Of a stretch of 64,000 nt of DNA, positions 13,339-53,146 are shown one piece after another; within the stretch, counting starts at the first letter, position 1; each line of letters begins with the position of its first letter. This stretch comes from Tessaracoccus palaemonis (GTDB taxonomy: Bacteria > Actinomycetota > Actinomycetes > Propionibacteriales > Propionibacteriaceae). Below the pieces are notes generated by a model that saw nothing but the letters and a program-made list of their open reading frames with translations, did not search any database and was not told the DNA's origin. The stretch lies in NCBI RefSeq assembly GCF_019316905.1, contig NZ_CP079216.1:186001-250000 (forward strand), given 5' to 3'. Position numbers and translations under genes: made by a program.

Positions 13339-14460
13339 ATGTACCCCCGAGTTCGGCCGAACGCAGGACGACTCCTGGCCGCAGCGCTGCTCTCGCTCGC
13401 GCTCTTCGCCTCCTTGATGCCCGCCGCGAGCGCGGCGCCACCGCTGGGCGGAGGATCCCTCGGGCTGCCCGCGGACGACTCGTCGCCCACGGTGTACCTG
13501 CGCGCCGAGCGGAGCGGGGTCAAGGTCTACAACGCCGCGCGCACGAAGGTCATCAAGACACTGGTGCGCGGGGCGAAGGTGTCGGCGACGAAGACCGTCA
13601 GCAGCGGCTACCGCAAGCTCACAAGCGGGCACTGGGTCAGGAACAGCGACCTGTACGTGTCCACGCACCTCTACATGCGCACCACGGTCGACGGGGTGCA
13701 CGCCTACGCCGCCGTCGGCGGATCGGTGGTGAAGGTCCTCGACAAGGGCACTGTCGTGCGGATGACCCACACCGTCGTGGGCGGCTACCGGCAGACGTCG
13801 GCGGGCAACTGGATCCGCAACGGCCACCTGGCTCAGACGGGTTCGTCGGGCACGTGGGGAAGCTGCACGGTGACGCTCGGGGGCGTGAAGCTGGCGGTCG
13901 ACTCCGAGGCGGGCCACCTCGTCACGGTCAACGGCACGAGCGGCTCGTACGCCATTGTCACGCTGTGGGACCGGGCATCGGGTGTGAAGTGCTCCTTCAC
14001 GAAGATGGGCTCGGAGAAGGGGCGTGTCGGCGCCAGGGGCATCGTCGCGGACGCCAAGCGGAAGCAGGACACCTTCACGACACCGGCCGGCACCTACACG
14101 ATGACGCAGGGCTTCTCGGTCGGCTCGGTGCCGAGGACCAAGGGCGTGTCGTGGCGGAAGGTCGACGGCAACGACTACTGGGTCCAGGACAACGATTCGG
14201 TGTACTACAACGAGTACCGCTCCGGCACGAGCGGCTTCGACACCTCCGACGCCGAGCACCTCATCGACTACAAGACCGAGTACCGCTACGCCATCGTCAT
14301 CGACTTCAACCTCGAGAAGGTCCGCAAGAAGGGCGCGGGGATCTTCCTGCACGTCAACGGCGACGGCGCGACCGCCGGCTGCGTGTCGGTGTCGAAGAGC
14401 TTCATGGTCGACATCGTCCACGCCGTCGACTCCGGCGACCTGATCTCCATCAAGGCGTGA
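13339..14460 (+). CDS. Secreted L,D-transpeptidase-like (YkuD-type) protein with SH3-like repeats
   Basis: 373 residues. A clear Sec signal peptide (LLAAALLSLALFASLMPAAS, cleavage near ASA-AP) is followed by two SH3-like repeats (about 48-95 and 108-155), each with a VYNAARTKVIKTL or VHAYAAVGGSVVKVL type strand. The C-terminal domain has the TPAGTYTM motif and, near the end, FLHVNGDGATAGCVSVS, which contains the His and the GC of a YkuD active site. It probably acts in the cell wall, cross-linking or anchoring peptidoglycan. Assignment rests on the HxN...AGCVS pattern; the domain is divergent. Confidence 0.72.
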   Translation: MYPRVRPNAGRLLAAALLSLALFASLMPAASAAPPLGGGSLGLPADDSSPTVYLRAERSGVKVYNAARTKVIKTLVRGAKVSATKTVSSGYRKLTSGHWVRNSDLYVSTHLYMRTTVDGVHAYAAVGGSVVKVLDKGTVVRMTHTVVGGYRQTSAGNWIRNGHLAQTGSSGTWGSCTVTLGGVKLAVDSEAGHLVTVNGTSGSYAIVTLWDRASGVKCSFTKMGSEKGRVGARGIVADAKRKQDTFTTPAGTYTMTQGFSVGSVPRTKGVSWRKVDGNDYWVQDNDSVYYNEYRSGTSGFDTSDAEHLIDYKTEYRYAIVIDFNLEKVRKKGAGIFLHVNGDGATAGCVSVSKSFMVDIVHAVDSGDLISIKA

Positions 14461-14462
14461 TC

Positions 14463-14942
14463 TCAGTGCCGGGGTTCGTGCCTCGGCTTCGGCGGGATAG
14501 TCGACAGTGACGGCGGGTTCTCCGGCCAGATGAGCTCGACGGTGCACGGCGCGTGATCCAGGATGAACCGCGCCGCGCGCCCGAGGCTGGGCGGCCCGAG
14601 CCGTGATCGGTCGCCGTCGCGGGCCAGGATCAGCAGGTCCGCGTCGTCGCAGGCGCGGGTCACGGCCCGCTCGGTCTCGCCTGTGAGCACGGCCGTCGCG
14701 CAGTCGCGGCCGAGCGCGGCGGCGGCCTTCTCCACCAGGCGGGCGGCCTGGTCGGCGGTCAGGGCCGCCGAGGCCTCGTCCCGGGGCGGGGACCCGCGAC
14801 CCATCAGCCCGCCTATCGGGCGGGGCACCTGACCGGCGTCGTCGACGGCCGCCAGGGTCAGGTCGTCGTCCTCGGGCCGCAGCTTCGCGGCCTCGACCGC
14901 CGCCGGCCACGTCGCCGGCGCGATCCACACCAGGACCCGCAT
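14463..14942 (-). CDS. UspA-like stress protein
   Basis: 159 residues of alpha/beta character. The start RVLVWIAPATWPAAVEAA, the central VEKAAAALG and CDDADLLILARDGDRSRLGPPS match a universal-stress-protein fold with a loose ATP-loop pattern. The C-terminal tail is proline and basic rich. It starts 1 nt after the stop of the upstream transporter gene and is therefore co-transcribed with it, so it may regulate that transporter. Confidence 0.65.
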   Translation of the reverse strand: MRVLVWIAPATWPAAVEAAKLRPEDDDLTLAAVDDAGQVPRPIGGLMGRGSPPRDEASAALTADQAARLVEKAAAALGRDCATAVLTGETERAVTRACDDADLLILARDGDRSRLGPPSLGRAARFILDHAPCTVELIWPENPPSLSTIPPKPRHEPRH

Positions 14943-14943
14943 G

Positions 14944-16212
14944 TCACACTCCCATCAGTTGAGCTCCACCCCACAGGGCCATCGTGCACAGCACGAGGCT
15001 CGCGGGCACGGTCAGGAGGCCCAGCCGGGTGAACTCGCCCAGCTCGGTCTCGTGGTCGTGGTCGGCGACGATGCGCCGCCACAGCAGGGTCGCGAGCGAC
15101 CCCACGAAGGTCAGGTTCGGCCCCACGTTGACGCCGATCAGGACCGCCAGCACCGGCAGCGCGCCGCCGTCGGAGACCAGCGGAAGCAGCACCAGGACGG
15201 CGGGCAGGTTGTTGACGACGTTGGCCAGCACCGCGGCGACGACCGCGATGAGCAGCAGGCTGAGCAGGTCGCCGCCGGTGGGCAGGAAGGTGCGCAGCCA
15301 GTCGGCCAGGCCGTGGTCGACGACGGCCTTGACCACCATCGCCAGCCCGAGGACGAACACGAGGAACCAGGGGTTCGCGGCCTCCACCAGCGTGGCGGCC
15401 AGCCTTCCCGGTGCGACGGCGCGCGTCGCGAGGCGCTTGCCGGCCAGCACGACGACGCCGGCCAACGCAGCCCAGAACGGCTCGATGCCCAGCGGTGAGC
15501 TGACAGCGAAACCGACCAGCGTGCAGGCGAGCACTACGAGCGCGAACACCGGGGTCGGGACGTCCTCGACGTCGTCGTCGGGGGTCGCGCGCACGCTCAG
15601 CTCCGAGGCGAAGTAGCGGCGGAACACGACGTACTCGACGGCGATGGCGACCAGCCACGGGCCCGCCATCAGCGCGCCGAACTGCAGGAAGCTGATCCCG
15701 GCGGCGCCGAGCGCCAGCAGGTTCGTCAGGTTGGAGACGGGCAGAAGCAGGGAGGCGGAGTTGGACAGGTGCGCCGTCGCGTAGACGTGCGGCTTGGGTC
15801 TCACCCCCGAGCGGGCGGCGGTGGCGAACACGACGGGGGTGAGCAGCACCACGGTCGCGTCGAGGCTCAACGCCGCCGTGACAAGCGCCGATACGGCGAA
15901 GACCAGCCCGAGGAGCGTGACGGGGCGACCGTTCGCGCGGCGGGCCATGAACGCGCCGGCGGCCGCGAACATGCCCTCGGCCTCGCACAGCTTCGAGAGC
16001 ATCAGCACCCCGGCGAGGAACGCGACGGTCGGCGCCATCGTCGTGACCTGCACCCAGGCCTCACTCCAGGTGATCAGCCCCGTCGCGGCGACGAGCAGGC
16101 CGGCGGGGGCGGCGGCGACCGCCTCGGGAAGGCCGCGCGGCCGGATGATGGCGAACGCCAGCACCGCCACCAGCAGCACGATGGCGATGGGTTCCGCCAG
16201 CCCGTCACTCAC
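14944..16212 (-). CDS. SLC13/ArsB-type ion transporter
   Basis: 422 residues with about 11-12 membrane helices in two inverted halves. The helix-break motifs SNSASLLLPVSNLTNLLAL and NVVNNLPAVLVLLPL are typical of the ion transporter superfamily (ArsB, NhaD, DASS). Candidates are arsenite, sodium/proton or dicarboxylate, and no arsenic genes are nearby. It is followed directly by the stress-protein gene in one operon and is divergent from a membrane protein gene. Confidence 0.8.
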   Translation of the reverse strand: MSDGLAEPIAIVLLVAVLAFAIIRPRGLPEAVAAAPAGLLVAATGLITWSEAWVQVTTMAPTVAFLAGVLMLSKLCEAEGMFAAAGAFMARRANGRPVTLLGLVFAVSALVTAALSLDATVVLLTPVVFATAARSGVRPKPHVYATAHLSNSASLLLPVSNLTNLLALGAAGISFLQFGALMAGPWLVAIAVEYVVFRRYFASELSVRATPDDDVEDVPTPVFALVVLACTLVGFAVSSPLGIEPFWAALAGVVVLAGKRLATRAVAPGRLAATLVEAANPWFLVFVLGLAMVVKAVVDHGLADWLRTFLPTGGDLLSLLLIAVVAAVLANVVNNLPAVLVLLPLVSDGGALPVLAVLIGVNVGPNLTFVGSLATLLWRRIVADHDHETELGEFTRLGLLTVPASLVLCTMALWGGAQLMGV

Positions 16213-37866: not shown

Positions 37867-37998
37867 TCAGTGGCCCGTGGTGTGGGCCGCGGAGCGTCCG
37901 TCGGAACCGAGGGCGGACTTGATGCGGCTGACAAGCCGCGACACCTCGCGGGCGATGTCCTTGAACGCAGGATCAAACGTGATGGGCTCGTTGGTCAT
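37867..37998 (-). CDS. Small protein, 43 residues, next to the cas operon
   Basis: ATG at 37998 with GGAGGT 6 nt upstream and a stop at 37869-37867. The product begins MTNEPITFDPAFKDIAREVS and contains the amphipathic helix RLVSRIKSALGS before a polar tail ending TTGH. No membrane segment and no family recognised. It is divergent from the cas operon, with a hairpin at 38066-38096 in its leader. It could be an unrelated small regulator or a cas-associated accessory protein; nothing proves either. Confidence 0.6.
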   Translation of the reverse strand: MTNEPITFDPAFKDIAREVSRLVSRIKSALGSDGRSAAHTTGH

Positions 37999-38065
37999 GA
38001 GTACCTCCAGCTGCTGCGACGCGTGCGCTTATCGAGCCGTGAACGACAGGTGTCGGTCATGACAA

Positions 38066-38096
38066 AGGCGCCTCACTCCGGGGAGATGAGACGCCT
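38066..38096. promoter_or_regulatory. Long hairpin in the leader of the small gene
   Basis: AGGCGCCTCA at 38066-38075 pairs with 38087-38096 (one mismatch), and inner CTCC/GGAG extends the stem. On the leftward transcript it lies 68 nt before the small gene. It may be a terminator or an mRNA leader structure. Confidence 0.5.
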
Positions 38097-38227
38097 CTAC
38101 GCGCTTGCAACGTTGACGATTCTACCACATTTGGACGGGTGGCTGATGACGGCAGGGGCATCGGGTCGGCCGACAGAAGGCGCGCCAGAATCAACGTGGA
38201 ACCGAGGGCATTAGGCTCGTGCCAGAT

Positions 38228-38316
38228 GGCTGGGCTCCATTGCGGTGCTGTCATGACCATGGGGGACACCCATACTTCCCAGGCATCAGGGTCACGCCCC
38301 ATCTAGGGCGTGACCC
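38228..38316 (+). ncRNA. Degenerate CRISPR repeat-spacer-repeat with terminator (CreR-like guide RNA candidate)
   Basis: GGCTGGGCTCCATTGCGGT (38228-38246) matches the last 19 nt of the array repeat at 17 positions, including the presumed 5' handle (ATTGCGGT against ATTGCGGG). A 26-nt pseudo-spacer follows (38247-38272). Next comes a decayed repeat start from 38273 (CTTCCC, then GGC-TCA-GG with one insertion and a 2-nt gap). GGGTCACGCCC (38289-38299) then pairs perfectly with 38306-38316 over a 6-nt loop, like a terminator. A weak -10 TAGGCT is at 38212-38217. The pseudo-spacer start GCTGTCATGACCATGGG matches the cas promoter region (see 38339-38394). Direct repeat homology is seen; transcription and function are inferred. 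Confidence 0.75.
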
Positions 38317-38338
38317 GCCCTCGGCGGTGCCAAAATGG

Positions 38339-38394
38339 TTCGCAGTAATGACTATGGGTTGGCCCTTGCTAGAGTGGGCAACCACTGCTACGCT
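38339..38394 (+). promoter_or_regulatory. cas operon promoter overlapped by a protospacer-like target with TTC PAM
   Basis: -35 TTGCTA (38366-38371), 17 nt, -10 TACGCT (38389-38394); csb1 starts at 38453. Just upstream, TTC (38339-38341) is followed by GCAGTAATGACTATGGG (38342-38358). That segment agrees with the first 17 nt of the pseudo-spacer except at positions 3, 6 and 12. An R-loop starting there would run into the -35. TTN is the PAM known for the Geobacter type I-G system. Confidence 0.75.
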
Positions 38395-38452
38395 CCGTCG
38401 TAGTGCCACCGTAGAAGTTGGCACTGACAAAAAGACCAGGAGGTTCTCCGCA

Positions 38453-39598
38453 ATGGCTCAGCTCACCCTCGACTCCCTCAGTGCCAAGTTGAAGGGGGGT
38501 GATTTCGCGCTCGTTCGGATCAACACCACCTACCAGCCGGCGGGCGGTCCCGGCGCGAAGGTCTTCCCGCCCACGTTCCCCCTCACCCGCGAGGAGTCCT
38601 CGCCGTACCTGCTGGAGGAGCGGATCAGCAATGGCGCCATCCGCAAGGCGGCCGTGCTCGATCAGGTGCCTTCCCAGGCCAACCGTGGGGAGGAGGCCGT
38701 CGCGGCGGCTCAGGGTGCCGGGTTGGTGAAGGTGCCCATGCTTCGCCTCACCCATGACGGCGCGGAGCATGCTGTCATCACCAGCTTCACCGCGCCACAC
38801 AGAGTCTTCGATGCCTACTGGCGAGACTCGCTGATCGACGGCGAGAAGTTCGACAAGACCGCCATGGGAAAGGCACTGCAGGCGGCCTCGCTGGCCGACG
38901 CGAGGGCAGTCCTGGAGCATGACCCGGGCAGTCTCACATTCGGCAGCTGGAACAGCCATCGCAAGGGGCGTCAGGCCAAGTTCCCCCGTGTCTACCAGAG
39001 CGAAATCGTGGGCTGGGACCCCGTCGTCGGGTCCCGGAAGGCCGGGCGGATGGACCCCCTCAACCTCGTCGGAAGCCGATCGGGAGAGGGTGATGAGTGG
39101 AGCTACTCGAGCGCTTCGCAGAAGACGGCGAAGGGGAAGCTCAGTGAGATCGGGCACGGCAACATCGCGCCGAACGAGGCCCACGGAGGAGTGACCATCA
39201 GCGGGGCGACCAGGTTCGCCACCCTGAGCCTCGCAGGCCTCAGGCGAATCGCGTTCGGCAGCGCGACCGCGGAGCAGGGTACCGCCGCCCGTGCCTACCT
39301 GGCCGCGTTCGCCCTGCTGGCGGACCGGCTTGCGTTGGGTGGGGCGTCAGTCTGGCTCCGGAGCGGGTGCGAACTCGTCGTCGAGGAGGAGACGCTCGAG
39401 TGGGTCGGTCGAGGCGGTGTGGTCGAGCAGTTCTCCCTCACGCAGGACGAGGCGATCGCTCTCTATCGCGAGGCGCTCGACGCCGCTGTCGCTGCCGGGG
39501 TGGCGCTGGCCCTCGAGCCGGTTGAGCTGACGCCATCAAGCGCGCTATCCAAGGCCATCGACTTCAGCCTCACCAAGGCCGAGTCCGCGGGAGAGTGA
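38453..39598 (+). CDS. csb1: Type I-G Cas7 (Csb1, GSU0053 family)
   Basis: 381 residues, the usual length for Csb1, the backbone subunit that coats the crRNA spacer in the type I-G Cascade. NTTYQPAGGPGAKVFPPTFP at the N-terminus, a DSWNSHRKG-like FGSWNSHRKGRQAKFPRV, and GGVTISGATRFATLSLAGLRR are typical of the family. The ATG at 38453 has AGGAGG 9 nt upstream, so the longer upstream frame covers only the promoter and guide-RNA region. First gene of the cas operon; its stop is 1 nt before the GTG of csb2. Confidence 0.9.
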   Translation: MAQLTLDSLSAKLKGGDFALVRINTTYQPAGGPGAKVFPPTFPLTREESSPYLLEERISNGAIRKAAVLDQVPSQANRGEEAVAAAQGAGLVKVPMLRLTHDGAEHAVITSFTAPHRVFDAYWRDSLIDGEKFDKTAMGKALQAASLADARAVLEHDPGSLTFGSWNSHRKGRQAKFPRVYQSEIVGWDPVVGSRKAGRMDPLNLVGSRSGEGDEWSYSSASQKTAKGKLSEIGHGNIAPNEAHGGVTISGATRFATLSLAGLRRIAFGSATAEQGTAARAYLAAFALLADRLALGGASVWLRSGCELVVEEETLEWVGRGGVVEQFSLTQDEAIALYREALDAAVAAGVALALEPVELTPSSALSKAIDFSLTKAESAGE

Positions 39599-39599
39599 C

Positions 39600-41036
39600 G
39601 TGGCCATCTGCCTGGATGTGTTCCTGGTGGCTGACCGCTACGACGCAGGCGCCGGACAGGATCCCCGCTCGTTCGAGTGGCCGCCGCACCCGGGGAGGGT
39701 GGTTGCGGCGCTGCGGTCTGTCGCGGGGGACGAGGACCTCCCCGTGCTGCGGTCCCTAGAATCGCTTCCAGCGCCCACTGTCCACGCGGCTGCCGAGTTC
39801 GGTGCAGGACGTAGCCGCACGTATGTGGTGACCAACAAGACGTATCTGGCGCCTAAGAAGAAAAGGGACGACGGTGCGATCGGGAACCTCAGCCACCCAG
39901 GGCGCACCAGCGGTCTGCGGGAACGGAGCTCGGTCTTTCCGGCCAATCCACGGATCCAGATGATCTGGGATCCGGAGGACATCCTGTCTGATGCGGAGCT
40001 GGCGAATCTGGACTCGATGGCACGTCGTGTGCCGTACCTGGGACGGTCCACGTCCCCGGTGCTCATGGGAGTGCAACGGGTGACCGAGGTGCGCGTGCCC
40101 GATGGGCTGAGCGCCTTCGTTCCGTCCGAAGGGGGCGATCGTCAGCTTCGGGTGCCGTATCCCGGCTACATCGATGAGCTGGACGGCCTCTTCGAAGCCG
40201 GTCTTTCCGCGTGGCAGGCCAGCGACAACGCGGTAGCGCGTCGCGGCTACCGCAGGATCGGGGAGGACATCCCAGTCGCGCTTCCTTCCTTCACGTCACG
40301 CTACAGCGATCTCGTTGTCCTGCGATTCACGGATCGACGACCGCCGAGCGGGAGCCAGACCGCGACATTTGCAGCTGCTCTCAGGTCAATGGTGATGCGC
40401 CAGACGCGCGATCCTCTGCCACCTGCCCTGCACGGCCATGGGTTCGACGGGAACCCGCACGTCGCCTACCTGGGCCTCCCTGTGTGCGGTTCGCCCCATT
40501 CCGATGGTCATCTTGTGGGCCTCGCGGTGGCGGTGCCCGGCATGGATGAGGCTGAACGGCGCCGCATTCTCAGAGGGATCCTCGGCCCTGAGGCAGATGG
40601 CACAGTGCAGCTCACGGTGCCGGGATATCGGTCTCCTTTCGAGCTGAAGTACCGGCCCGATGAGCGGCTTCCGCGCAGCGCGACGGTGAGCCACTGGTTA
40701 CGGTCGTCACGGCAATGGGTGACTGCGACTCCGATTGTCCTGGACAGGTATCCGAAGAACGGCGATCTGGCGGAGGCCGTGCTGGAGAGCGTGGTGAACG
40801 CGGGCTACCCAGAACCGGATGAGGTCGAAGTCAGCCGCGAGGCCATGACAACTGGCGGGGTGCGTCTGACACCTCGCGACCTTCCACGTAGGTCCAGGGG
40901 ACGTCTCTACTGCCACGCGCGGATCACGTTCGGGCCGGAGGTGGAGGGGCCGGTCCTTGTCGGGGCCGGACGCTACTTCGGCATCGGTCTCCTGCAACCT
41001 GAGCGACGTCTTGAAGGAGGCGCTGATGAGGTGTGA
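39600..41036 (+). CDS. csb2: Type I-G Cas5-Cas6 fusion (Csb2, GSU0054 family)
   Basis: 478 residues. The N-terminal Cas5-like half has DRYDAG...EWPPHPGRVVAALRS, and RSRTYVVTNKTYLAPKKKRD follows. The C-terminal half (about 260-478) carries a Cas6-like RAMP fold with the glycine-rich end GPVLVGAGRYFGIGLLQP. In this subtype the protein both caps the crRNA 5' end in Cascade and cuts pre-crRNA inside the repeat. The start is a GTG 1 nt after the csb1 stop, and the end overlaps the cas3 start by 11 nt, so translation is coupled. Confidence 0.88.
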   Translation: MAICLDVFLVADRYDAGAGQDPRSFEWPPHPGRVVAALRSVAGDEDLPVLRSLESLPAPTVHAAAEFGAGRSRTYVVTNKTYLAPKKKRDDGAIGNLSHPGRTSGLRERSSVFPANPRIQMIWDPEDILSDAELANLDSMARRVPYLGRSTSPVLMGVQRVTEVRVPDGLSAFVPSEGGDRQLRVPYPGYIDELDGLFEAGLSAWQASDNAVARRGYRRIGEDIPVALPSFTSRYSDLVVLRFTDRRPPSGSQTATFAAALRSMVMRQTRDPLPPALHGHGFDGNPHVAYLGLPVCGSPHSDGHLVGLAVAVPGMDEAERRRILRGILGPEADGTVQLTVPGYRSPFELKYRPDERLPRSATVSHWLRSSRQWVTATPIVLDRYPKNGDLAEAVLESVVNAGYPEPDEVEVSREAMTTGGVRLTPRDLPRRSRGRLYCHARITFGPEVEGPVLVGAGRYFGIGLLQPERRLEGGADEV

Positions 41037-43938
41037 GGACTTCCCCGAGTTCTTCCGCGAGGTCCATGGCCACGAGCCGTTCCCTTGGCAGAAGGACCTG
41101 CCGCGTCAGATCGTCGAAGCGGGGCACTGGCCGTCGCTGGTAGACGTTCCGACAGGCCTCGGCAAGACGTCGATGCTCGATGTTGCGGTTTTCCTCCTCG
41201 CGTTGGAGGCGGATCTTCCGCCCGCGCAGCGACTGGCGCGTAGAAGGATCTTCCTTGTGGTCGATCGAAGAATCGTCGTCGATCAGGCCGAGGAGCACGC
41301 TCGAAGGATCGCAGACCGGCTTGACAACGCAGAGATCGGCAGCGTCACGGCTCTCGTCGCCGAAAGGCTCCGGAGATTGTCGAGTTCCACGGCCGGTCGG
41401 CCAGTACTCCCAGTGGTGAAGATGCGGGGAGGCGCCACCTGGGACGCGGCATGGCTGTCCAGGCCCGATCTTCCCGCCATCGTCACCGGCACGGTCGACC
41501 AGGTGGGGAGCCGCCTCTTCTTCAGGGGCTACGGCGTGAGTCCTCGCCGGCGTCCCATCGATGCTGCCCTCGTCGGGGCAGACTCGCTCATCCTGGTTGA
41601 CGAGTCTCATCTGGCGACAGCCCTGACAGCGTCGCTGGCCTCAGCCTCCGCTGTTGATGCGCCGCCGCACGACTTGTCTCCGAGGCCAGTGATCACCAGG
41701 CTGACAGCCACCACTGATGAGGAGATCGACGGCTGGATACCGGCCTTCGACGCTCAAGCGCACTTGGCCGATCCGGTGGCGGCCCGAAGGATCACCGCCC
41801 GGAAGCGCCTTCGGATGGAGTCGACCCAGAAGAGGACCGCTGCGAAGCGGATCGCCGAGGTGGCGGTGGAGGCATTGTCCCCCGGCGCCAGGGTTCTCGT
41901 CGTGTGCAACACCATCGACCGCGCGCGCGAGGTGTTCGCGCATCTGAGCAGGTCGTCGGTGTCCGACGTTCAGCGACTCCTGCTGATCGGACGGAGTCGG
42001 TCTTATGAGCGGGAGGCTGTCGTTGACCGGGTGCTTGCCCTCTTCGGGGCCGGCCGCGACGAGTCGGCGGCCTCTGCGGTCCTCGTCGCCACCCAGACGG
42101 TCGAGGTCGGGATTGATCTGGATGCCACGGCTCTCGTGACGGAGAGCTCATCGTGGGATGCGCTGGTTCAGCGAATCGGGCGCGTGAACCGGCGAGGAGA
42201 TCGTGACGACTCGGTCGTTGTGGTCGTGGACGACGATGATTCGCGGCCCCCCGTCTACGGGAATGCGCGACTCTCTACCGTGGAGTATCTGGGTGGGCTG
42301 CTGGCAGATTCGGAGGAACTCGATGTCTCCCCATCGGCCTTGCGCAGACTCAGCCCGCCGAAGGGAACCATGCTGGAGCGAGCGGCGGCGCCGTACCTCC
42401 TGCCTGCTCACCTAGACGCCTGGACGCGAACGAGTCCGGCCCCGGTGAATGATGCTCCACTCGACGCATATCTCCACGGGATCGAACGTGGCGTGGCGCC
42501 CGTGTCTCTCGCCTGGCGCGACGGCCTTCTATTGGCAGACGGTTCGCCGGCAGCTGCAGATCCGTCGACGTGGATCGAGGCGATCCCTGTGCGTGGAGAG
42601 GAGAGTGTGGAGGTGCCCCTCGTTGCAGTGAGGCTCTGGTTGGCCGGGCGCAGGGCCGCTCCGCTCAGCGACTGGGACGATGACGAGTGGGCGCCATTCG
42701 CCGAAGACACCTCTCGCGAGGTCCTGCGGAAGGAGGCTCGCCCGGACGGCACTGTCGGCTGGGAGTGGGTGTCAGCCAGCCTCATCCGCCCCGGCGACAG
42801 CCTGGTCGTGCCCTCCGAGTACGGAGGGCTTGACGAGTACGGCTGGAACCCGGCGAGTGAGGTCCCCGTCAGGGACGTGGCCGAGCTGGCCGCTCTGGAC
42901 CGCGGCCAGGCCGCCCTCCGTATTGATGAGGCGCTTGCAGGCCGACTGAGTCTTCAGCCGCTCAGCGAGGACTTCTGGTCGCTTCTCCGCACCTGGCGGA
43001 CCTCTGACGATCCGGAGGTGGCTGCCACCGCGAGGGAGTCCGGCGAGGCCGCGCTGCGCCGATGGCTTGCAGGTTCCGCCTGGCCGGGGGCTGGCCCCTG
43101 GGCTCGTCCTGTCGCCCACGGCGAGTCGCGAGGGAGCGCGCTCTTGAGCGCGATGTCGGCTGCTGAACTCCAGCTGGCTTCTCGCGGTCGTCGCCGGGAT
43201 CTGCCCGTTCTTCCCGCTCGAGACTCATCCGTCATCATCATGAAACCCACCGCGAGCGGGCAGGTGGCCGCCTGGCGCGAGGCATCGGACGAGACGCCGG
43301 ACGGGACCACTCACATCTTCGAGAGGCGGGTGACGCTCAAGCAGCACGGCGACGCCGTCGCCGCACGAGCGGAGGGGATCGCGCGCAACCTCCGCCTGCC
43401 TGAGGAGTTGGTGCGGGCGGTAGCCGATGCTGCACAGTGGCATGACCTCGGAAAGACGGATCCACGCTTCCAGGCGATGCTGTTCGGCGGGGACCGGGTT
43501 TCGGCCGAACTGGCGGAAGAGCCTCTGGCGAAGTCCGGCATGGACGCTGGGGATCTTCAGCGTCGTCGGGACGCTCTTCGCCGGAGCGGGCTTCCGCGGG
43601 GCGCTCGCCACGAGGCCTGGTCGCAAGCCCTGGTCCGTGACTACCTTGAGAAGCTCACAACGCCCTATCCTGCCGACGCCGATCTTGTTCTCCACCTGGT
43701 TGCCAGTCACCACGGCCATGCGAGGCCCTTGCTGCCTGCCGTTGTCGAGACGGCGCAGCACGACATCAGTGCCGAGATTGATGGCGCGCAGGTCACCGTG
43801 GCTGTGCCTCAGATGGTGGATCTGGAAGACGCCACCAGGTTCCAGCGGCTGAACGCCAGGTACGGCCGCTGGGGTCTGGCGTTGCTGGAAGCGATCGTCC
43901 GCTGTGCGGACATGACTGTCTCAGGAGAAGGCTCATGA
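41026..43938 (+). CDS. cas3: Cas3 helicase-nuclease with C-terminal HD domain (type I-G)
   Basis: 970 residues. A superfamily 2 helicase comes first: Q-motif PFPWQKDLPRQ near residue 20, Walker A DVPTGLGKTSML near 42, DESH box LILVDESHLATAL near 191, and motif VI QRIGRVNRRGD near 384. The HD nuclease is at the C-terminus: WHDLGKTDPRF near 807 and SHHGHARPLL near 895. This helicase-before-HD order is the mark of type I-G and differs from most Cas3 proteins. AAGGAGG precedes the ATG at 41026, which lies inside csb2. Motifs look intact. Confidence 0.92.
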   Translation: MRCEDFPEFFREVHGHEPFPWQKDLPRQIVEAGHWPSLVDVPTGLGKTSMLDVAVFLLALEADLPPAQRLARRRIFLVVDRRIVVDQAEEHARRIADRLDNAEIGSVTALVAERLRRLSSSTAGRPVLPVVKMRGGATWDAAWLSRPDLPAIVTGTVDQVGSRLFFRGYGVSPRRRPIDAALVGADSLILVDESHLATALTASLASASAVDAPPHDLSPRPVITRLTATTDEEIDGWIPAFDAQAHLADPVAARRITARKRLRMESTQKRTAAKRIAEVAVEALSPGARVLVVCNTIDRAREVFAHLSRSSVSDVQRLLLIGRSRSYEREAVVDRVLALFGAGRDESAASAVLVATQTVEVGIDLDATALVTESSSWDALVQRIGRVNRRGDRDDSVVVVVDDDDSRPPVYGNARLSTVEYLGGLLADSEELDVSPSALRRLSPPKGTMLERAAAPYLLPAHLDAWTRTSPAPVNDAPLDAYLHGIERGVAPVSLAWRDGLLLADGSPAAADPSTWIEAIPVRGEESVEVPLVAVRLWLAGRRAAPLSDWDDDEWAPFAEDTSREVLRKEARPDGTVGWEWVSASLIRPGDSLVVPSEYGGLDEYGWNPASEVPVRDVAELAALDRGQAALRIDEALAGRLSLQPLSEDFWSLLRTWRTSDDPEVAATARESGEAALRRWLAGSAWPGAGPWARPVAHGESRGSALLSAMSAAELQLASRGRRRDLPVLPARDSSVIIMKPTASGQVAAWREASDETPDGTTHIFERRVTLKQHGDAVAARAEGIARNLRLPEELVRAVADAAQWHDLGKTDPRFQAMLFGGDRVSAELAEEPLAKSGMDAGDLQRRRDALRRSGLPRGARHEAWSQALVRDYLEKLTTPYPADADLVLHLVASHHGHARPLLPAVVETAQHDISAEIDGAQVTVAVPQMVDLEDATRFQRLNARYGRWGLALLEAIVRCADMTVSGEGS

Positions 43939-44897
43939 ATCAAGTCAGACTCCCGGCGCTGACAGGCGATTCGCCGCTCGGCATTCTCGCCGCCTTCGGG
44001 GTTCTCCGGCTGTTGGCCCAGTTCTCCGATGAATCGGCGAAGCTGAGTTGGGATCCTGCTAGCAGGTTGGCCGTGATCCATGGACGACGCACCAGCGTCG
44101 AGGAGATCGTGAAGGACCTCCAGACCATCGTCGATCGGATCGATGAAGGTTCGGTCCTCCCGGGTGTGGCGCCTGCGTTCCCCCCACCCGGCGCTGCACC
44201 GGACGGACTGCGGGCGCCCCAGACTCAGCTCCGCCAGACGGTTGCTCCGCTCCTTGTGCCCATGGCGGAGGGAGAACGTGCGGAAGCCATGCGCTGGCTC
44301 GCCAGCCTTGTTACGGACCTCACGTCCGATGACACAGGACGGGCGGCGATCAGCCAGTTCACGGCGCCGACAGGCAAGCAATCAATGGCAACGATGCTGA
44401 CCAAACCGCTAGCGGCCATCCGCAAGAACCCGGACTACCTGCGGCAGGCGCTCATGAGCTGGCGACGGGTGCCAGGCACCACCGGCGAAAACCTCGACCA
44501 CAGGGCCTTGTGGGACTCCGCGGAAGACGGCTCCGGTGACGCCAACATGCGTGGGGTGCCTGGCGCGACGTGGCTTGCTTTGATGAGCTACCCGCTCCTA
44601 CGTACCACGGTCGGGTTGAGGCATCGTCCGCTCAGCAGCGGGTGGCATACGACGAAGTTGCCTGGAGGCCGCGCCTACAGCGAGCTGAGACTCCCCCTGT
44701 GGGAGCAGCCTATTTCTCCGCCAGGGGTGACGGCACTAGTGGAGCATCCGGCGATGGCGGAATGTGTGACCGGCGACGGGAGGTCCTCTCCGACAGAGGC
44801 CCTCCAGAGTCTCGGCGTGTTCAGTGTTTGCCGTTCCCGGAGATATCAGCCGCCTGGGGGGCAGTCTGCGGGCGTCCTACGGACGATCGACACATGA
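43935..44897 (+). CDS. csb3: Type I-G Cas8-like subunit, Csb3 (GSU0052/Balac_1303) family
   Basis: 320 residues. The N-terminal pattern LPALTGDSPLGILAAFGVLR is shared by type I-G large-subunit candidates. The protein is short compared with Csx17 (about 700), but this fits the Csb3/GSU0052 family seen in Geobacter and Bifidobacterium, so it need not be truncated. It presumably recognises the PAM or stabilises the R-loop. The ATG overlaps the cas3 stop by 4 nt and the stop overlaps the cas4-cas1 ATG by 4 nt. No frameshift is visible within it. Confidence 0.8.
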   Translation: MNQVRLPALTGDSPLGILAAFGVLRLLAQFSDESAKLSWDPASRLAVIHGRRTSVEEIVKDLQTIVDRIDEGSVLPGVAPAFPPPGAAPDGLRAPQTQLRQTVAPLLVPMAEGERAEAMRWLASLVTDLTSDDTGRAAISQFTAPTGKQSMATMLTKPLAAIRKNPDYLRQALMSWRRVPGTTGENLDHRALWDSAEDGSGDANMRGVPGATWLALMSYPLLRTTVGLRHRPLSSGWHTTKLPGGRAYSELRLPLWEQPISPPGVTALVEHPAMAECVTGDGRSSPTEALQSLGVFSVCRSRRYQPPGGQSAGVLRTIDT

Positions 44898-46573
44898 GGG
44901 CTATCCGGCCAGACGTGCCTGGGCTCCCCGACACGGTTCCCGCCAGGATGATCAACGAGTTCGTCTACTGTCCCAGGCTCTTCCATCTCGAATGGGTTCA
45001 GTCCCAGTTCACCACGAACGATGATGTGGAGGAGGGGCTATATGTTCACCGCGTCGTGGACAAGGGAAGCGGGGACCTCCCAGACAAGACAGAAGCGTGG
45101 GACGGTCGGCGCGCCACCTCGGTCTGGGTGACGTCGAGCCGATTGGGGCTCACGGCAAAGCTGGACTTGGTTGAAGGCAGCGACGACGGCACCGCCGTAC
45201 CTGTTGACTACAAGAAGGGGCGACCGAATGACGATGGATCTGCCTGGACAGGTGACCGGATCCAGCTGCTGGTCCAAGCCATGCTCCTCCGCGATGCTGG
45301 GTATCAAGTAGACAGGGCGGAGGTCTGGTACGCCGAGTCCCGTCGCCGTGTTGCTGTTGTGGTGGACGACGAAGGCGTCGCAGAGGTGGAGGACATTCTG
45401 GAACGGCTGTGGGCGACCGCGAGCCAGCCAAAGGCACCTGCACCGCTCAGAGGTAGCCCCAAGTGTCCCAGGTGTTCACTTGTCGGGGTTTGCCTTCCGG
45501 ACGAGATCAGCGCCTTGAACACCCGCGCGAAGGAGCGCAAGCAACTGCGGCGCGTGATGGCCCCAGACCGTCTCTCCCGTCCGGTGTACGTGACGCTGCA
45601 GGGTGCCTCGGTCGGCGTGCGGAGGGGACGTCTGGAGGTCTTCAGCGATGGAGAGACGAAGGCCTCCTATCGACTCATTGATGTGTCACAGGTCTGTCTG
45701 TTCGGGAACGTCTCGGTGTCGGCGCAAGCCATGCGCGAGCTGATGTCCAGAGAGGCTCCGGTGCTGTGGTTCTCGTTCGGGGGCTGGTTCTCAGGAATGG
45801 CTGAAGGGCTTCCTGGGCGCAATGTGGAGTTGCGCCGCGCTCAGTACACGGCGAACCCGGAGTTCGCGCTGAACGTCGCCAGAAACATGATCGCGGGGAA
45901 GATCAGAAACTCTCGGACCATGCTCCGGCGCAACTCTCGCACTGAAGTCGGCCCAGTCATCGATCAACTGATGGACATGAGCAGCGCTGCTCGTCGAGTG
46001 GAGTCACCGGCAAGCCTCTTGGGGATTGAGGGAACTGCTGCGCGCATCTACTTCGGTGAGTTCACCTCCATGGTTGGAGCAGGATGCAAGGTTGACGTCG
46101 GGTCCTTCAATGCAAACGGGAGGGCTCGTCGTCCACCACCCGACATACTCAATGCCCTTCTGTCGTTTACCTATGCGCTCCTGACGAAGGACCTCACCGT
46201 CGCGCTCCACGCAGTCGGCCTCGACCCCTACTGGGGTGTCATGCATCGTCCCCGATTCGGTCGCCCGGCCCTGGCACTCGACCTGGCCGAAGAGTTCCGC
46301 CCGCTGGTTGCCGAGAGCGTTGTTCTTCAGGTGCTGAACAACGGTGAAGTGAGCGATGCCTCCTTCCGGATCCACGCTGCCGGTTGCCAGCTCGAGTCGG
46401 AGGGCCGCAAGGTCGTACTCAGTGCATATGAACGGCGCTTGGAGCACGAGATCACGCATCCGCACTTCGGATACCGGGTTACCTATCGGCGAGCGATGGA
46501 GGTACAGGCCAGGATGCTTGCGGCGCATCTCAAAGGTGAACTGCCGGAGTATGTGCCGTTCGTGACGAGGTGA
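44894..46573 (+). CDS. cas4-cas1: Cas4-Cas1 fusion
   Basis: 559 residues. The Cas4 part (1-205) has FVYCPRLFHLEWVQ, the RecB-nuclease PVDYKKGR motif and a C-terminal cysteine cluster CPRCSLVGVCLP. The Cas1 part (about 225-559) has the integrase metal ligands: Glu in LLGIEGTAARIYF, His in MHRPRFGRP and Asp in LALDLAEEFRP. In type I-G the fused Cas4 selects PAM-proximal ends for spacer integration. The start at 44894 (ATGA overlap with csb3) is chosen over an open frame reaching back to 44570, which lies inside csb3. Confidence 0.93.
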   Translation: MRAIRPDVPGLPDTVPARMINEFVYCPRLFHLEWVQSQFTTNDDVEEGLYVHRVVDKGSGDLPDKTEAWDGRRATSVWVTSSRLGLTAKLDLVEGSDDGTAVPVDYKKGRPNDDGSAWTGDRIQLLVQAMLLRDAGYQVDRAEVWYAESRRRVAVVVDDEGVAEVEDILERLWATASQPKAPAPLRGSPKCPRCSLVGVCLPDEISALNTRAKERKQLRRVMAPDRLSRPVYVTLQGASVGVRRGRLEVFSDGETKASYRLIDVSQVCLFGNVSVSAQAMRELMSREAPVLWFSFGGWFSGMAEGLPGRNVELRRAQYTANPEFALNVARNMIAGKIRNSRTMLRRNSRTEVGPVIDQLMDMSSAARRVESPASLLGIEGTAARIYFGEFTSMVGAGCKVDVGSFNANGRARRPPPDILNALLSFTYALLTKDLTVALHAVGLDPYWGVMHRPRFGRPALALDLAEEFRPLVAESVVLQVLNNGEVSDASFRIHAAGCQLESEGRKVVLSAYERRLEHEITHPHFGYRVTYRRAMEVQARMLAAHLKGELPEYVPFVTR

Positions 46574-46579
46574 GTTGAC

Positions 46580-46864
46580 ATGCCCCGTCGACGGCACCTC
46601 ATTGCCTATGACATCCGCGAGCCAAGCCGGTTGAGACGTGTCTGCAAGTTGATGGAGGCTCATGGCGAGCGCCTCCAGTATTCGGTCTTCGTGTGTGACC
46701 TCACGAAGACCGAGCTTCTCCACCTCCGGCGTGACGCCGAGCGCATCATGAATCTGGCAGCCGACTCCGTGGTGATCATCGACCTTGGTAGCCTCGATGC
46801 AGCGCGCTTCACGTTCGTCGGTCAACGGATGGAACTGCCGTCGCGTGGAAACCAGATCATCTAG
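46580..46864 (+). CDS. cas2: Cas2
   Basis: 94 residues of the ferredoxin-like Cas2 fold: HLIAYDIREPSRLRRVCKLM at the start with the conserved Asp, QYSVFVCDL in the middle and SVVIIDLGSL near the end. It forms the integration complex with Cas1. Starts 6 nt after cas4-cas1; last cas gene before the leader. Confidence 0.93.
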   Translation: MPRRRHLIAYDIREPSRLRRVCKLMEAHGERLQYSVFVCDLTKTELLHLRRDAERIMNLAADSVVIIDLGSLDAARFTFVGQRMELPSRGNQII

Positions 46865-47030: not shown

Positions 47031-50000
47031 CTCTTCCCGGCCTCAACGGCCGGGCTCCATTGCGGGTGCTCCTCCTGCAGATCGCTCGACGTGTCTCCCG
47101 CGAGCTCTTCCCGGCCTCAACGGCCGGGCTCCATTGCGGGTGGGGCTCGGGCCGTCACCACGGGGAGGTGGCCCCGAGCCTCTTCCCGGCCTCAACGGCC
47201 GGGCTCCATTGCGGGCCGAGAAGGGCGCCTGCGTGCGCCGCCTCTACCTTGTACTCTTCCCGGCCTCAACGGCCGGGCTCCATTGCGGGACGAAGGGCAT
47301 GAGCGGCACCCACTGGTCGGCCTCTTCTCTTCCCGGCCTCAACGGCCGGGCTCCATTGCGGGTGCTCCTTGATCGCCGCGGAGAAGCCTTCGACCGACTC
47401 TTCCCGGCCTCAACGGCCGGGCTCCATTGCGGGATGACCTTGCTGATCGACGTGCCGCCCGCCTCGGCCTCTCTTCCCGGCCTCAACGGCCGGGCTCCAT
47501 TGCGGGGCGTGTCAAGAGCAGCTCGTAGCCGGTGAGCGCCCAGCTCTTCCCGGCCTCAACGGCCGGGCTCCATTGCGGGTTCTTCGTCCAGTAGGCACGG
47601 TCGCGCTGGTACTTGGCCTCTTCCCGGCCTCAACGGCCGGGCTCCATTGCGGGCCGCTCACGACGCACCTCCCAGCGGCCAGAGGACGGTCTCTTCCCGG
47701 CCTCAACGGCCGGGCTCCATTGCGGGGCCGTAACCACTCGCACCGGCGAAGTACCCCTGCCTCTTCCCGGCCTCAACGGCCGGGCTCCATTGCGGGTGGG
47801 CGAGGAGCGACTTCCCGACACCGGGCCGTGCGGCCTCTTCCCGGCCTCAACGGCCGGGCTCCATTGCGGGGACAGGTCGCGGTCGTCGGAGCTGTAGTGG
47901 TACAGCCCCTCTTCCCGGCCTCAACGGCCGGGCTCCATTGCGGGCAGGTGGCCCACGCGGCGGGGAGGGTCGCCAGCCCGCCTCTTCCCGGCCTCAACGG
48001 CCGGGCTCCATTGCGGGGGCGGGGCCTCGCCGTCGAACCACAGCGCATACGCGGCGCTCTTCCCGGCCTCAACGGCCGGGCTCCATTGCGGGCCGCTCAT
48101 GCCGCACCTCCCAGCGGCCAGAGGACCTCCTCTTCCCGGCCTCAACGGCCGGGCTCCATTGCGGGCAGATGACGTGCCGAGCGACGAACAGCCACCCCGC
48201 CCTCTCTTCCCGGCCTCAACGGCCGGGCTCCATTGCGGGTGTTGCGGCGATGGCGTCCCAGTCGTCCCCGCGTTCCCGCTCTTCCCGGCCTCAACGGCCG
48301 GGCTCCATTGCGGGGACAGAGGGCCACGTGCCGAGGGATCGCAGCTCGTTCTCTTCCCGGCCTCAACGGCCGGGCTCCATTGCGGGCCCCCTGCAGTGAT
48401 CACCACGGCGCAGGGCCCGCTCATCTCTTCCCGGCCTCAACGGCCGGGCTCCATTGCGGGGGGCCCTGGTCGGCGGCCCCGTTCGCGAGGCCGTTTCTCT
48501 TCCCGGCCTCAACGGCCGGGCTCCATTGCGGGTCGGTCAGTTTCGCCGACGCCTTCTCCGCGGCCTCCTCCTCTTCCCGGCCTCAACGGCCGGGCTCCAT
48601 TGCGGGTTCGCCTGCCCGTGGAGGCGCAGCACGAACCCGACCTCTTCCCGGCCTCAACGGCCGGGCTCCATTGCGGGCTCGCGATGTACTCGCTGTTGAT
48701 CGCACGCGTCGCCTCTTCCCGGCCTCAACGGCCGGGCTCCATTGCGGGCTGTTCGACACGCTCAAGAGCCCCGGCCCCATCGACCCTCTTCCCGGCCTCA
48801 ACGGCCGGGCTCCATTGCGGGTACAACTCCGCCGCCATCCGCCAGTACGCCGCGCCCTCTTCCCGGCCTCAACGGCCGGGCTCCATTGCGGGAGGAACTC
48901 GGCGGGGTCGAGCGCGTGGGTCTACACGTCCTCTTCCCGGCCTCAACGGCCGGGCTCCATTGCGGGGGTCTCAAGCGCGTCCCGGAGCTGACCGAGTACC
49001 CCTCTTCCCGGCCTCAACGGCCGGGCTCCATTGCGGGTGCGCCGGCCCACCCGAAGGAGGGCGGCATGAGCAACGACTCTTCCCGGCCTCAACGGCCGGG
49101 CTCCATTGCGGGGGGAAGTACCCCCGACAGACCGTCACGGCCTGAGTGACTCTTCCCGGCCTCAACGGCCGGGCTCCATTGCGGGGTCCCCGACTTCGCC
49201 GCGAACGACAGCCGCGCCGCCGAGCTCTTCCCGGCCTCAACGGCCGGGCTCCATTGCGGGGGTGCCACTGTAGCCCCTTCGGTGCCGATGTCAACCTCTT
49301 CCCGGCCTCAACGGCCGGGCTCCATTGCGGGCGCTCAACGAACAGCCCGCAATGCAGATGAGGAACCCCCCTCTTCCCGGCCTCAACGGCCGGGCTCCAT
49401 TGCGGGCACCACATGCCGGGGTGGCGGAGGATGCCGGGGCTGTCGACTCTTCCCGGCCTCAACGGCCGGGCTCCATTGCGGGCAGCTACCCGCGTCGGAT
49501 TCGATGCGGACGGCGTACACTCTTCCCGGCCTCAACGGCCGGGCTCCATTGCGGGAGGAACTCCGCCTTGGCGGCCGCGCCTTCGTCGTCGGCCTCTTCC
49601 CGGCCTCAACGGCCGGGCTCCATTGCGGGGACGACGCCGGCGGAACCCTGACCGGCGGGTCCGGGACCTCTTCCCGGCCTCAACGGCCGGGCTCCATTGC
49701 GGGGCGACCTCCGCCCGGAAGCTCGGCTACCACATCCAGCTCTTCCCGGCCTCAACGGCCGGGCTCCATTGCGGGGCCGGCTCGGCTAGGTTTCTGAATA
49801 TCGACACCCGGTCCTCTTCCCGGCCTCAACGGCCGGGCTCCATTGCGGGATCCACGACCAGGATGGCTGGCGATTGAAGGGGCATGGCGCTCTTCCCGGC
49901 CTCAACGGCCGGGCTCCATTGCGGGGACCTGTCGCAGCCGCACCTGGGCAAGGACCACGACTCTTCCCGGCCTCAACGGCCGGGCTCCATTGCGGGCGCC

Positions 50001-53000
50001 TCATCGACCTCTCTGACGAGGTGGATGACAGGAACTCTTCCCGGCCTCAACGGCCGGGCTCCATTGCGGGAACCCACGCCGCGCCGCCTCCGCTCTGATA
50101 TTGCCCGCCTCTTCCCGGCCTCAACGGCCGGGCTCCATTGCGGGGTGGAGGGCGCCCTCGAGGGCGACTTCGCAATCGTGGGCTCTTCCCGGCCTCAACG
50201 GCCGGGCTCCATTGCGGGGGCGATACGCCGACCTACCTGCTTATCTCCGAATCTCCCTCTTCCCGGCCTCAACGGCCGGGCTCCATTGCGGGGCGCAGTA
50301 CTGCGCCCACCCCGTAGCGTCCTGGAGCCTCTTCCCGGCCTCAACGGCCGGGCTCCATTGCGGGACCGCACTCGGCTCCGTGGTGTTCCAGCTCACCACC
50401 GCTCCTTCCCGGCCTCAACGGCCGGGCTCCATTGCGGGGCGGGTAAGGAGTCCGTACTCGGCCAGGATTCCCGCCTCTTCCCGGCCTCAACGGCCGGGCT
50501 CCATTGCGGGCGGTCGGCGATCCGCTCGGCGGGCAGGGACCAGTCGACTCTTCCCGGCCTCAACGGCCGGGCTCCATTGCGGGCGCGCGGCCCACAGCTC
50601 GGCGTCTAGGCGGCTCTCCTCTTCCCGGCCTCAACGGCCGGGCTCCATTGCGGGGACCACCTCGCGCGTGTTGCACGGCTCGTCGAAGCCGGCCTCTTCC
50701 CGGCCTCAACGGCCGGGCTCCATTGCGGGTGTGCAACCTTGCCGTAGTCGACAGCCGCCTGCCCCTCTTCCCGGCCTCAACGGCCGGGCTCCATTGCGGG
50801 GTCTACGCCGTGCACGGCAACGAGGTCCCGACCACGGACCTCTTCCCGGCCTCAACGGCCGGGCTCCATTGCGGGGGCCAGGGCAACGGCGAGAACGCCC
50901 GCGACACCGGCAGCTCTTCCCGGCCTCAACGGCCGGGCTCCATTGCGGGTCGTTCCCCCGAAAGGAGCCCGACATGGCAACCACCTCTTCCCGGCCTCAA
51001 CGGCCGGGCTCCATTGCGGGGCGGTCAGGTCGGCCTTGATGTTGACCGCCGCCTTGGCGCTCTTCCCGGCCTCAACGGCCGGGCTCCATTGCGGGTTGTC
51101 GATGACCGAGTCCCACGCGCCCATGACGTCGACTCTTCCCGGCCTCAACGGCCGGGCTCCATTGCGGGTTCGGCTGGGGTCTCGTGCGTCGCTTCGTGTC
51201 GTGACTCTTCCCGGCCTCAACGGCCGGGCTCCATTGCGGGACCCCGATCCCGAACCCGTTCGCCGGCTGGGATGTGACTCTTCCCGGCCTCAACGGGCGG
51301 GCTCCATTGCGGGCCGCTCCTTCCCGGAGTCCACACGGTCTGCCAGCCAGCTCTTCCCGGCCTCAACGGCCGGGCTCCATTGCGGGTACGGATTCTCCCA
51401 GGATATGTGGCAGGCATTTGCTCTGGCTCTTCCCGGCCTCAACGGCCGGGCTCCATTGCGGGACGTCACACATCGCCGGGAAGAATGCGCAGGTCCGACT
51501 CTTCCCGGCCTCAACGGCCGGGCTCCATTGCGGGGACACACGCCGAAGCTGGAACACCTCGATACGGTCCACTCTTCCCGGCCTCAACGGCCGGGCTCCA
51601 TTGCGGGCACTGCACGGCAGCGGAGTAGTAGCCCGAGCTGGGCTGCTCTTCCCGGCCTCAACGGCCGGGCTCCATTGCGGGTCGGTCTTGCGATTGCGGA
51701 GCCGCTCGCGCAGCATCTCCTCTTCCCGGCCTCAACGGCCGGGCTCCATTGCGGGTTGTATGCCGACCTGAGCAGCGACTCCCCGACCCAGCTCTTCCCG
51801 GCCTCAACGGCCGGGCTCCATTGCGGGATCTTGCGCAGGCCGTCGAGGACTTCCTCGAGGCCCTCCTCTTCCCGGCCTCAACGGCCGGGCTCCATTGCGG
51901 GAACCCCAGAGGCGACGGCCACCCAGACGCCCGCTCAGCTCTTCCCGGCCTCAACGGCCGGGCTCCATTGCGGGAGGCGAACGTTCGCCAGCGATGCGCG
52001 GGAAATGTCGCCTCTTCCCGGCCTCAACGGCCGGGCTCCATTGCGGGGACCAGGTGTAGATCGTCTGCTTGCCGCCCGACGACACCGCTCTTCCCGGCCT
52101 CAACGGCCGGGCTCCATTGCGGGCACCAGATCAGGAGCGCCCGCGTCCCGGCCGGGCGCTCCTCTTCCCGGCCTCAACGGCCGGGCTCCATTGCGGGGGG
52201 ATCGCGTTGACGAGCCCGAGGAACAGCTGGATCGCCTCTTCCCGGCCTCAACGGCCGGGCTCCATTGCGGGAACGTCGACGCGCTCCTCCGCGCCGACAC
52301 CAAGACCCTCTTCCCGGCCTCAACGGCCGGGCTCCAATGCGGGCACCAGATCAGGAGCGCCCGCGTCCCGGCCGGGCGCTCCTCTTCCCGGCCTCAACGG
52401 CCGGGCTCCATTGCGGGTCGTAGGCGCGGTCGCGCCGGATGATGTAGCGGGCGAACTCTTCCCGGCCTCAACGGCCGGGCTCCATTGCGGGTGGTAGCTC
52501 TTGACTTGGGAGGCTAGCTCGATCTCGTCTCTTCCCGGCCTCAACGGCCGGGCTCCATTGCGGGATCGCTAGAGAGCTATCAGCGGGGTCTTTGAAGAAG
52601 ACCTCTTCCCGGCCTCAACGGCCGGGCTCCATTGCGGGGTGGTCATGGTTGGTCCTTTCGTTGACAGGGGCAGGCCTCTTCCCGGCCTCAACGGCCGGGC
52701 TCCATTGCGGGAGCAGGATCGGGATGTTCGCAGTCAGGGTCGAGACGAGCTCTTCCCGGCCTCAACGGCCGGGCTCCATTGCGGGAGGTGCGCCGTGTCG
52801 AGCTTCCCGAGCTTCGAGGCGGACCTCTTCCCGGCCTCAACGGCCGGGCTCCATTGCGGGTGAGCGTGAAATGTCACACCCGCCCCGAAGGTTGTGCTCT
52901 TCCCGGCCTCAACGGCCGGGCTCCATTGCGGGGGCAACACTCGTCCCCGACTTCGCCGCGAACCTCACTCTTCCCGGCCTCAACGGCCGGGCTCCATTGC

Positions 53001-53146
53001 GGGGCCGCCCGCCGCCACCTGCTCGGCCTCACGCTGGCTCTTCCCGGCCTCAACGGCCGGGCTCCATTGCGGGACTCTCATGGGCTACTTCCGCCCCATC
53101 GAGCTCGCGACTCTTCCCGGCCTCAGCGGCCGGGCTCCAGCGCTGG
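47031..53146 (+). CRISPR. Type I-G CRISPR array, 84 repeats and 83 spacers
   Basis: I counted 84 repeats of 36 nt that begin CTCTTCCCGG and end CCATTGCGGG; spacers are 34-40 nt. Each repeat holds a CCCGGCC-TCAAC-GGCCGGG hairpin and ends in ATTGCGGG, the likely 8-nt crRNA handle. Nearly all repeats are identical. Variants are the repeats at 50403 (5' end), 51278 (loop-proximal G), 52308 (CCAATG) and the decayed last one at 53111-53146, which marks the old end. Spacers at 52124-52161 and 52344-52381 are identical. Open frames reading through the array on both strands are by-products of the repeat. Confidence 0.98.

Follow-up and report, generated by a model that had tools for sequence, protein, structure and literature searches.

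The stretch of DNA analysed here (the window, 64,000 nucleotides, positions 186001-250000 of the contig of a 3.2-Mb genome) carries, ahead of a type I-G CRISPR-Cas operon, a decayed crRNA-like unit that very probably specifies a CreR-like autoregulatory guide RNA repressing its own cas operon. This reading, first proposed from the sequence of the window alone, is supported because the guide matches a PAM-flanked site upstream of csb1 with mismatches in type I phase, and because the same arrangement recurs, with different but matching guides, at nine other loci. The target match is an addition to the sequence-only reading, which had named no target.

The operon comprises csb1, csb2, cas3, a cas4-cas1 fusion and cas2, and it is accompanied by an array of 36-nt repeats, the set of features by which type I-G is recognized (Table 1). 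Candidates for Csx17/Cas8g were sought only in the protein encoded at 43935-44897, which stayed below the cut-off of the Csx17 model (E 0.021, 13.5 bits, cut-off 150). In the array, 82 repeat copies have the exact core GGGCTCCATTGCGG and 83 have TTCCCGGCCTCAACGG. A comparison of the array with phage sequences at E 0.01 gave no match, so the spacers did not provide an independent PAM.

Table 1. Positions of the element, its target and the type I-G genes in the window; the last line refers to locus L078.
Feature	Position	Strand	Details
First repeat remnant	38228-38246	+	GGCTGGGCTCCATTGCGGT; stem 3' arm GGCTGGG (38228-38234), CTCC, 8-nt handle ATTGCGGT (38239-38246)
Pseudo-spacer (guide)	38247-38272	+	26 nt; matching part is the first 17 nt, 38247-38263
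Second repeat, 5'-half remnant	38275-38288	+	CCCAGGC can pair with the GGCTGGG arm of the first remnant (predicted fold)
Hairpin, possible 3' end or terminator	38289-38316	+	11-bp stem, 6-nt loop (predicted fold)
22-aa ORF	38335-38403	+	Starts before the target
PAM (TTC) of target	38339-38341	+	Guide-target scan, genome pattern search
Guide target	38342-38358	+	111 bp before csb1 ATG, coding strand
24-aa ORF	38418-38492	+	TTG start, runs into csb1
csb1 (Cas7, type I-G), first operon gene	38453-39598	+	PF09617 1.2e-46; TIGR02570 1.1e-19
csb2 (Cas5-Cas6), predicted processing nuclease	39600-41036	+	PF09609 3.5e-24; TIGR02165 6.2e-72
cas3, start uncertain	40957-43938	+	Cas3 HD and helicase domains
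Type I-G Cas3-extension family protein	43935-44897	+	NF049934 1.6e-85
cas4-cas1 fusion, true start uncertain	44570-46573	+	PF01930, PF01867
cas2	46580-46864	+	PF09827
CRISPR array	47031-53073	+	36-nt repeat CTCTTCCCGGCCTCAACGGCCGGGCTCCATTGCGGG
L078 pair genes	14232-14507 and 14727-15263	-	85-aa and helix-turn-helix-like proteins

The unit lies 137-225 bp upstream of csb1, and most of what had been read from its sequence was borne out. Its first part is identical to the end of the array repeat, GGCCGGGCTCCATTGCGGG, at 17 of 19 bases, and its handle (the length of 8 nt was adopted from a passage of PMC9638904) equals the array handle except for the last base. This solo remnant is the sole close copy outside the array in the genome: a genome-wide search with GGCYGGGCTCCATTGCGG at up to two mismatches returned 85 forward and 0 reverse matches, of which 83 fall in the array block, one is the element itself without any mismatch and one lies at 655911 with 2 mismatches; a control search with the reversed pattern gave 1 match. 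The pseudo-spacer is present at its full 26 nt (the 82 array spacers that were measured have 34-40 nt), and by eye the degenerate start of a second repeat can be made out as the 5'-half remnant CTTCCCAGGC at 38275-38284. Taken together, a crRNA-like unit with degenerate repeats is situated outside the array and adjoins the cas operon, one of the marks of CreR. Shuffling of the stem that the two half-repeats could form gave p values of 0.037 for the window's own locus, 0.016 for L063 and 0.098 to 0.992 for the other eight elements introduced below; because repeat arms are complementary by ancestry, the split-repeat stem is a suggestion only. The proposed terminator held up in part: the 11-bp stem with its 6-nt loop is there, and since the hairpin has no T tract and a scan by the T-tract rule found 0 terminator-like sites at it, it is only a putative terminator. 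Upstream of the element, a possible 43-aa ORF (37868-37999, minus strand) has a GGAGGT ribosome-binding-like site as judged by eye.

The matching part of the guide, GCTGTCATGACCATGGG, and its target, GCAGTAATGACTATGGG, are identical at 14 of 17 positions, with mismatches at 3, 6 and 12, and none of 200 shuffled guides matched as well. By plain identity, at most 13 positions agreed in any of 78 decoy loci. The pattern TTNGCNGTNATGACNATGGG, derived from the guide-target pair, has one genome match with 0 mismatches, which is the target, and two further matches at up to two mismatches, one of which is the guide itself. Partial complementarity to the putative promoter region upstream of the element's own cas genes, next to a PAM, is a second mark of CreR. 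Two results on promoters count against the CreR-like reading: a consensus scan of 38060-38460 found no sigma-70 promoter, and the promoter-like hexamers immediately following the targets scored no better than in shuffled sequence (mean 6.3 versus 5.96). A -35 hexamer that had been read by eye inside the protospacer was dropped, being no better than shuffles. Besides the csb1 frame, the only plus-strand ORFs that overlap 38335-38452 are those of 22 aa and 24 aa, and no separate small gene lies in the 94 nt from the target to csb1.

For comparison, csb1 loci were collected from relatives through protein searches (6 of 60 genomes), by matches to PF09617 in samples of the order (20 of 391 genomes), class (18 of 394), family (20 of 198) and phylum (26 of 396), which overlap and each include the window's genome, from additional genome contigs (3 loci) and from plasmids (8 of 23 matching records). 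The main scan, anchored on the handle, covered 44 loci, 43 of them distinct (L064 equals L010; L065, a copy of L008, was left out), and 10 of the 252 candidate sites in them reached a score of at least 10, a number for which shuffles give 0.2. When the scan was applied unchanged to 32 fresh loci, mostly from other classes and including four plasmids, a single doubtful match appeared in L131, which counts against the CreR-like reading. Altogether, elements were accepted in 10 of 75 distinct csb1-family loci (43 plus 32), and the 65 loci that lack one are likewise counted against it. The ten are the window's own locus, L008, L063, L071, L074, L075, L078, L085, L088 and L084; the last was found through its own repeat, the other nine in the handle-anchored scan of 44 loci.

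Fourteen handle occurrences were tested by shuffling, and for nine of them 0 of 200 shuffles were as good. Those that fell short were L074 -477 (59 shuffles as good), L074 -883 (49), L067 (183), L084 -954 (182) and L073 -1464 (114). A site at L073 -387 (score 10.5) was not counted, because it falls within an ORF and 41 of 78 decoys do equally well; nor was L131 (score 12.5), the target of which is on the other strand and the handle of which is unlike its own array repeat, while its match is equalled in 1 of 78 decoys and its mismatches (3, 6, 8 and 12) fit the phase. In a scan independent of the handle, true repeats overwhelmed the result (253 pairs, 70 inspected), and a relaxed scan with any PAM produced many noise pairs. 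Among viral contigs, nine stretches matched a pattern and none encodes a relative. Three Csb1-family (PF09617) matches, L081, L082 and L083, are located near arrays with repeats of 28-29 nt, unlike the 36-nt repeats of type I-G.

The handle-anchored scan lets every sixth position mismatch freely. Because this could bias its outcome, the 800 nt before csb1 in the ten loci were scored anew by plain identity over 17 nt, whatever the PAM. In all ten, the best site in the locus was the one originally found, and it lay on the coding strand beside a PAM of the form T-T/A-N (TTC, TTG, TTA or TAC). The guides differ among the ten loci, each fitting its own. Over the ten loci, the numbers of mismatches at guide positions 1 to 17 are 0, 0, 1, 0, 0, 8, 0, 2, 4, 1, 0, 7, 0, 1, 4, 1 and 2. 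Positions 6 and 12 thus hold 15 of the 31 mismatches, a concentration reached in 0 of 100,000 permutations, a value that is descriptive only, as a guide-target score favouring that phase had served to select the elements. The same 15 mismatches fill 15 of 20 cells, the three quarters expected of unconstrained bases, so that pairing elsewhere looks maintained. The matches follow the recognition geometry of the cognate effector, a third mark of CreR: in the type I-G effector structure, as presented in part of PMC9638904, every sixth base is flipped out and the PAM is TTN.

The ten elements are not equally strong. By plain identity, those of the window, L063, L071, L075, L078 and L085 beat all 78 decoys, and that of L008 was equalled in 2; L074, L084 and L088 are weak (equalled in 11, 14 and 5 of 78 decoys), which counts against the CreR-like reading. 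The elements of L075 and L078 are orthologous, and the two loci share layout and neighbouring genes; their guides differ at 7 of 17 positions, and the target has changed in step at six of these (1, 7, 10, 11, 13 and 16), the seventh being position 6. The PAM also goes with the type of repeat and handle, GCGG with TTC or TTG (5 of 5), GAGG with TAC (4 of 4) and GAAG with TTA (one case), counts that are not independent, the loci being related.

A quick tree was calculated for 75 Csb1 sequences (79 loci minus four with short proteins). The window's locus, L008 and L063 fall into one starred clade of nine, the other six members of which form a starred clade of their own with no element found by our scans. 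The expected conservation in close relatives is therefore seen in part, two of the eight other clade members having the element and six of the eight missing it, which weighs against the CreR-like reading; one ancestral element lost once would fit this clade. Over the whole tree, presence of the element requires 7 changes, compared with a mean of 9.6 for shuffled labels (4 of 500 shuffles were as low). The target is positioned 103-122 bp before the csb1 ATG in the three loci of the clade and 103-196 bp before the csb1 start when L071 and L074 are included. The elements of L008 and L063 are encoded on the strand opposite to csb1. The stretch before csb1 in L062 reads, by eye, as a transposase-like coding sequence.

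At the remaining loci the target is found before a small ORF that precedes csb1 (L075, L078, L085, L088 and perhaps L084). In L075 and L078 this ORF, of 85 aa, is placed between the element and csb1, and the element's other flank encodes a protein of 165-178 aa with a helix-turn-helix-like stretch (by eye). The 85-aa protein and helix-turn-helix-like proteins of 165-202 aa occur as a pair in L078, L075, L177, L178 and L179. Homologues of both are side by side in genomes G062, G005 and G002, where csb1 is not among the matches listed. The two genes look like a toxin-antitoxin pair that may have been taken into the type I-G locus. For the 85-aa protein of L078, Pfam and NCBIfam gave no family and PDB offered nothing better than E 0.67, and a HicA-like reading by eye was set aside for want of family support; its counterpart in L075 has a sub-cut-off Pfam match to DUF2939 (E 0.0066). 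The layout of both loci is CrePA-like, with a crRNA-like element placed between paired genes and matching the region before the 85-aa gene. L085 and L088 have a CreTA-like order, namely target, small ORF (45 or 36 aa), crRNA-like element and csb1; judged by eye, two degenerate repeats seem to be complete in L088. In L084, an ORF of 72 aa follows the target. L075, L078, L085 and L088 may be regarded as CreTA candidates outside type I-B.

The remaining four plasmid loci and the short stretches L060 and L057 yielded one match, L160 (score 10.0), on a plasmid of the gammaproteobacterium Methylomagnum ishizawai, where csb1 is annotated in two pieces. About 310-425 bp before csb1, two repeat-like hairpins flank a guide, the second ending in CCTCATTGGAGT by eye. 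The guide agrees with a TTG-flanked site on the coding strand at 13 of 17 positions (mismatches at 6, 8, 12 and 15), and the match is equalled in 4 of 78 decoys. We keep it apart from the ten, as a weaker eleventh case from outside the phylum. No CRISPR array was found within the stretch of L160 that was examined.

If the CreR-like reading is correct, a short RNA would be made from about position 38220 to 38316. According to a section of PMC9638904, the type I-G handle is held by no Cas5 and the transcript is cut 4 nt downstream of the stem; by analogy, Csb2 would cut before AUUGCGGU, and the RNA would be loaded into a Csb1/Csb2 Cascade. The partial guide of 17 nt, with its three mismatches, would then lead Cascade to 38342-38358 beside the TTC PAM. 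Because pairing between guide and target stops after 17 nt, the bound complex would presumably escape Cas3 cleavage of its target and instead keep csb1 and the genes that follow from being transcribed. The resulting negative feedback would be relieved once crRNAs or anti-CRISPRs occupy the effector.

Other explanations have to be weighed. The unit could be without present function, whether it is what remains of an old array or an ectopic repeat whose spacer was once acquired from the cas upstream region; the decayed repeats, the absence of the element from six of the eight other clade members and the failure of the promoter scan to recognize anything all suit this view. In a dead remnant, on the other hand, guide and target would not stay matched apart from mismatches mainly at positions 6 and 12, as they do across ten loci whose guides differ, nor would they change in step between L075 and L078, and we consider this explanation unlikely. 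The small ORFs raise another thought, namely that the RNA is of the antitoxin type, like the CreA of CreTA/CrePA, that its real target drives a toxin RNA or a tiny toxin gene and that csb1 is affected in passing. It draws on the small ORF between target and csb1 in L075, L078, L085, L088 and perhaps L084, and on the two tiny ORFs overlapping this stretch in the window. Neither of the latter is a separate gene between target and csb1, the one of 22 aa beginning ahead of the target and that of 24 aa overlapping csb1, an argument that applies to toxin genes and not to a toxic RNA lacking an ORF; for the window such a role is very improbable. Solitary repeats can also act as decoys, as set out in part of PMC10651486, and the unit might be an RNA anti-CRISPR (Racr) or a phage-borne decoy repeat; its place directly before the cas operon and the match of its guide to the csb1 upstream region leave this hardly credible.

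With the CreR-like reading, type I-G, which a passage of PMC9638904 calls the least well understood type I effector, gains a concrete candidate circuit of self-regulation, open to testing at the level of single bases. Natural guide-target pairs moreover report rules of type I-G recognition without experiment, that is, which positions matter and which PAM is used. A broader proposal, which we put forward tentatively and a little short of probable, is that Propionibacteriaceae and their relatives possess a type I-G family of self-regulating mini guide RNAs, in which the outer repeat halves have been lost, the inner halves pair around a guide about 11 nt shorter (close to two Cas7 steps of 6) and sister loci have redirected the RNA to small genes, among them one partner of a toxin-antitoxin-like pair. 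If true, CreR and CrePA would gain type I-G representatives, and TAC would be indicated as the PAM of the branch with GTTGAGG repeats.

RNAs of the CreR kind are already known, and the window element would be a type I-G case. Liu et al., in Cell Host Microbe in 2023, reportedly described CreR as a cas-regulating RNA, and Shmakov et al., in NAR in 2023, are said to have found, for the most part in type I, repeats standing alone whose spacers show partial complementarity to cas promoters. The CRISPR-derived RNA regulatory elements and mini-arrays of Shmakov et al. (2023) and the window element have a standalone repeat unit and a match upstream of cas genes in common. In a literature search by titles and the beginnings of abstracts, a scope outside which the Shmakov 2023 and Liu 2023 papers fall, no RNA of this sort came up for type I-G. 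Natural single-guide tracrRNA and scaRNA of Cas9 repress own or host genes through a guide of short complementarity; they differ from the window element in belonging to type II and being tracrRNA-based. A mention of scaRNA occurs in PMC9458426. Racr are solitary repeat units in viral genomes (excerpt of PMC10651486), which the window element resembles in its solitary repeat unit and to which it adds a guide matching the cas upstream region. CreTA and CrePA rely on Cascade, which a guide with degenerate repeats directs to repress a promoter next to the cas genes (PMC12737573 and PMC9458426). L075, L078, L085 and L088 have a similar layout, whereas the window element is aimed at the csb1 upstream region and has no separate small gene before csb1. 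According to a 2025 review (PMC12737573), type I-B is to date the sole type in which CreTA has been elucidated, and its occurrence in other types is posed there as a question. CreR itself is portrayed in parts of three papers as a crRNA-like RNA, partly complementary to its own cas promoter, that directs repression by the effector (PMC12737573, PMC13131331, PMC12948488); it is named there for types I-B, I-E and V-A (PMC13131331) and placed in type I and V-A (PMC12737573). CreR and the window element are both crRNA-like and partly complementary to the region before their own cas operon, and the window element is set apart by its type I-G effector, its 26-nt guide and its repeats, of which only the inner halves are seen.
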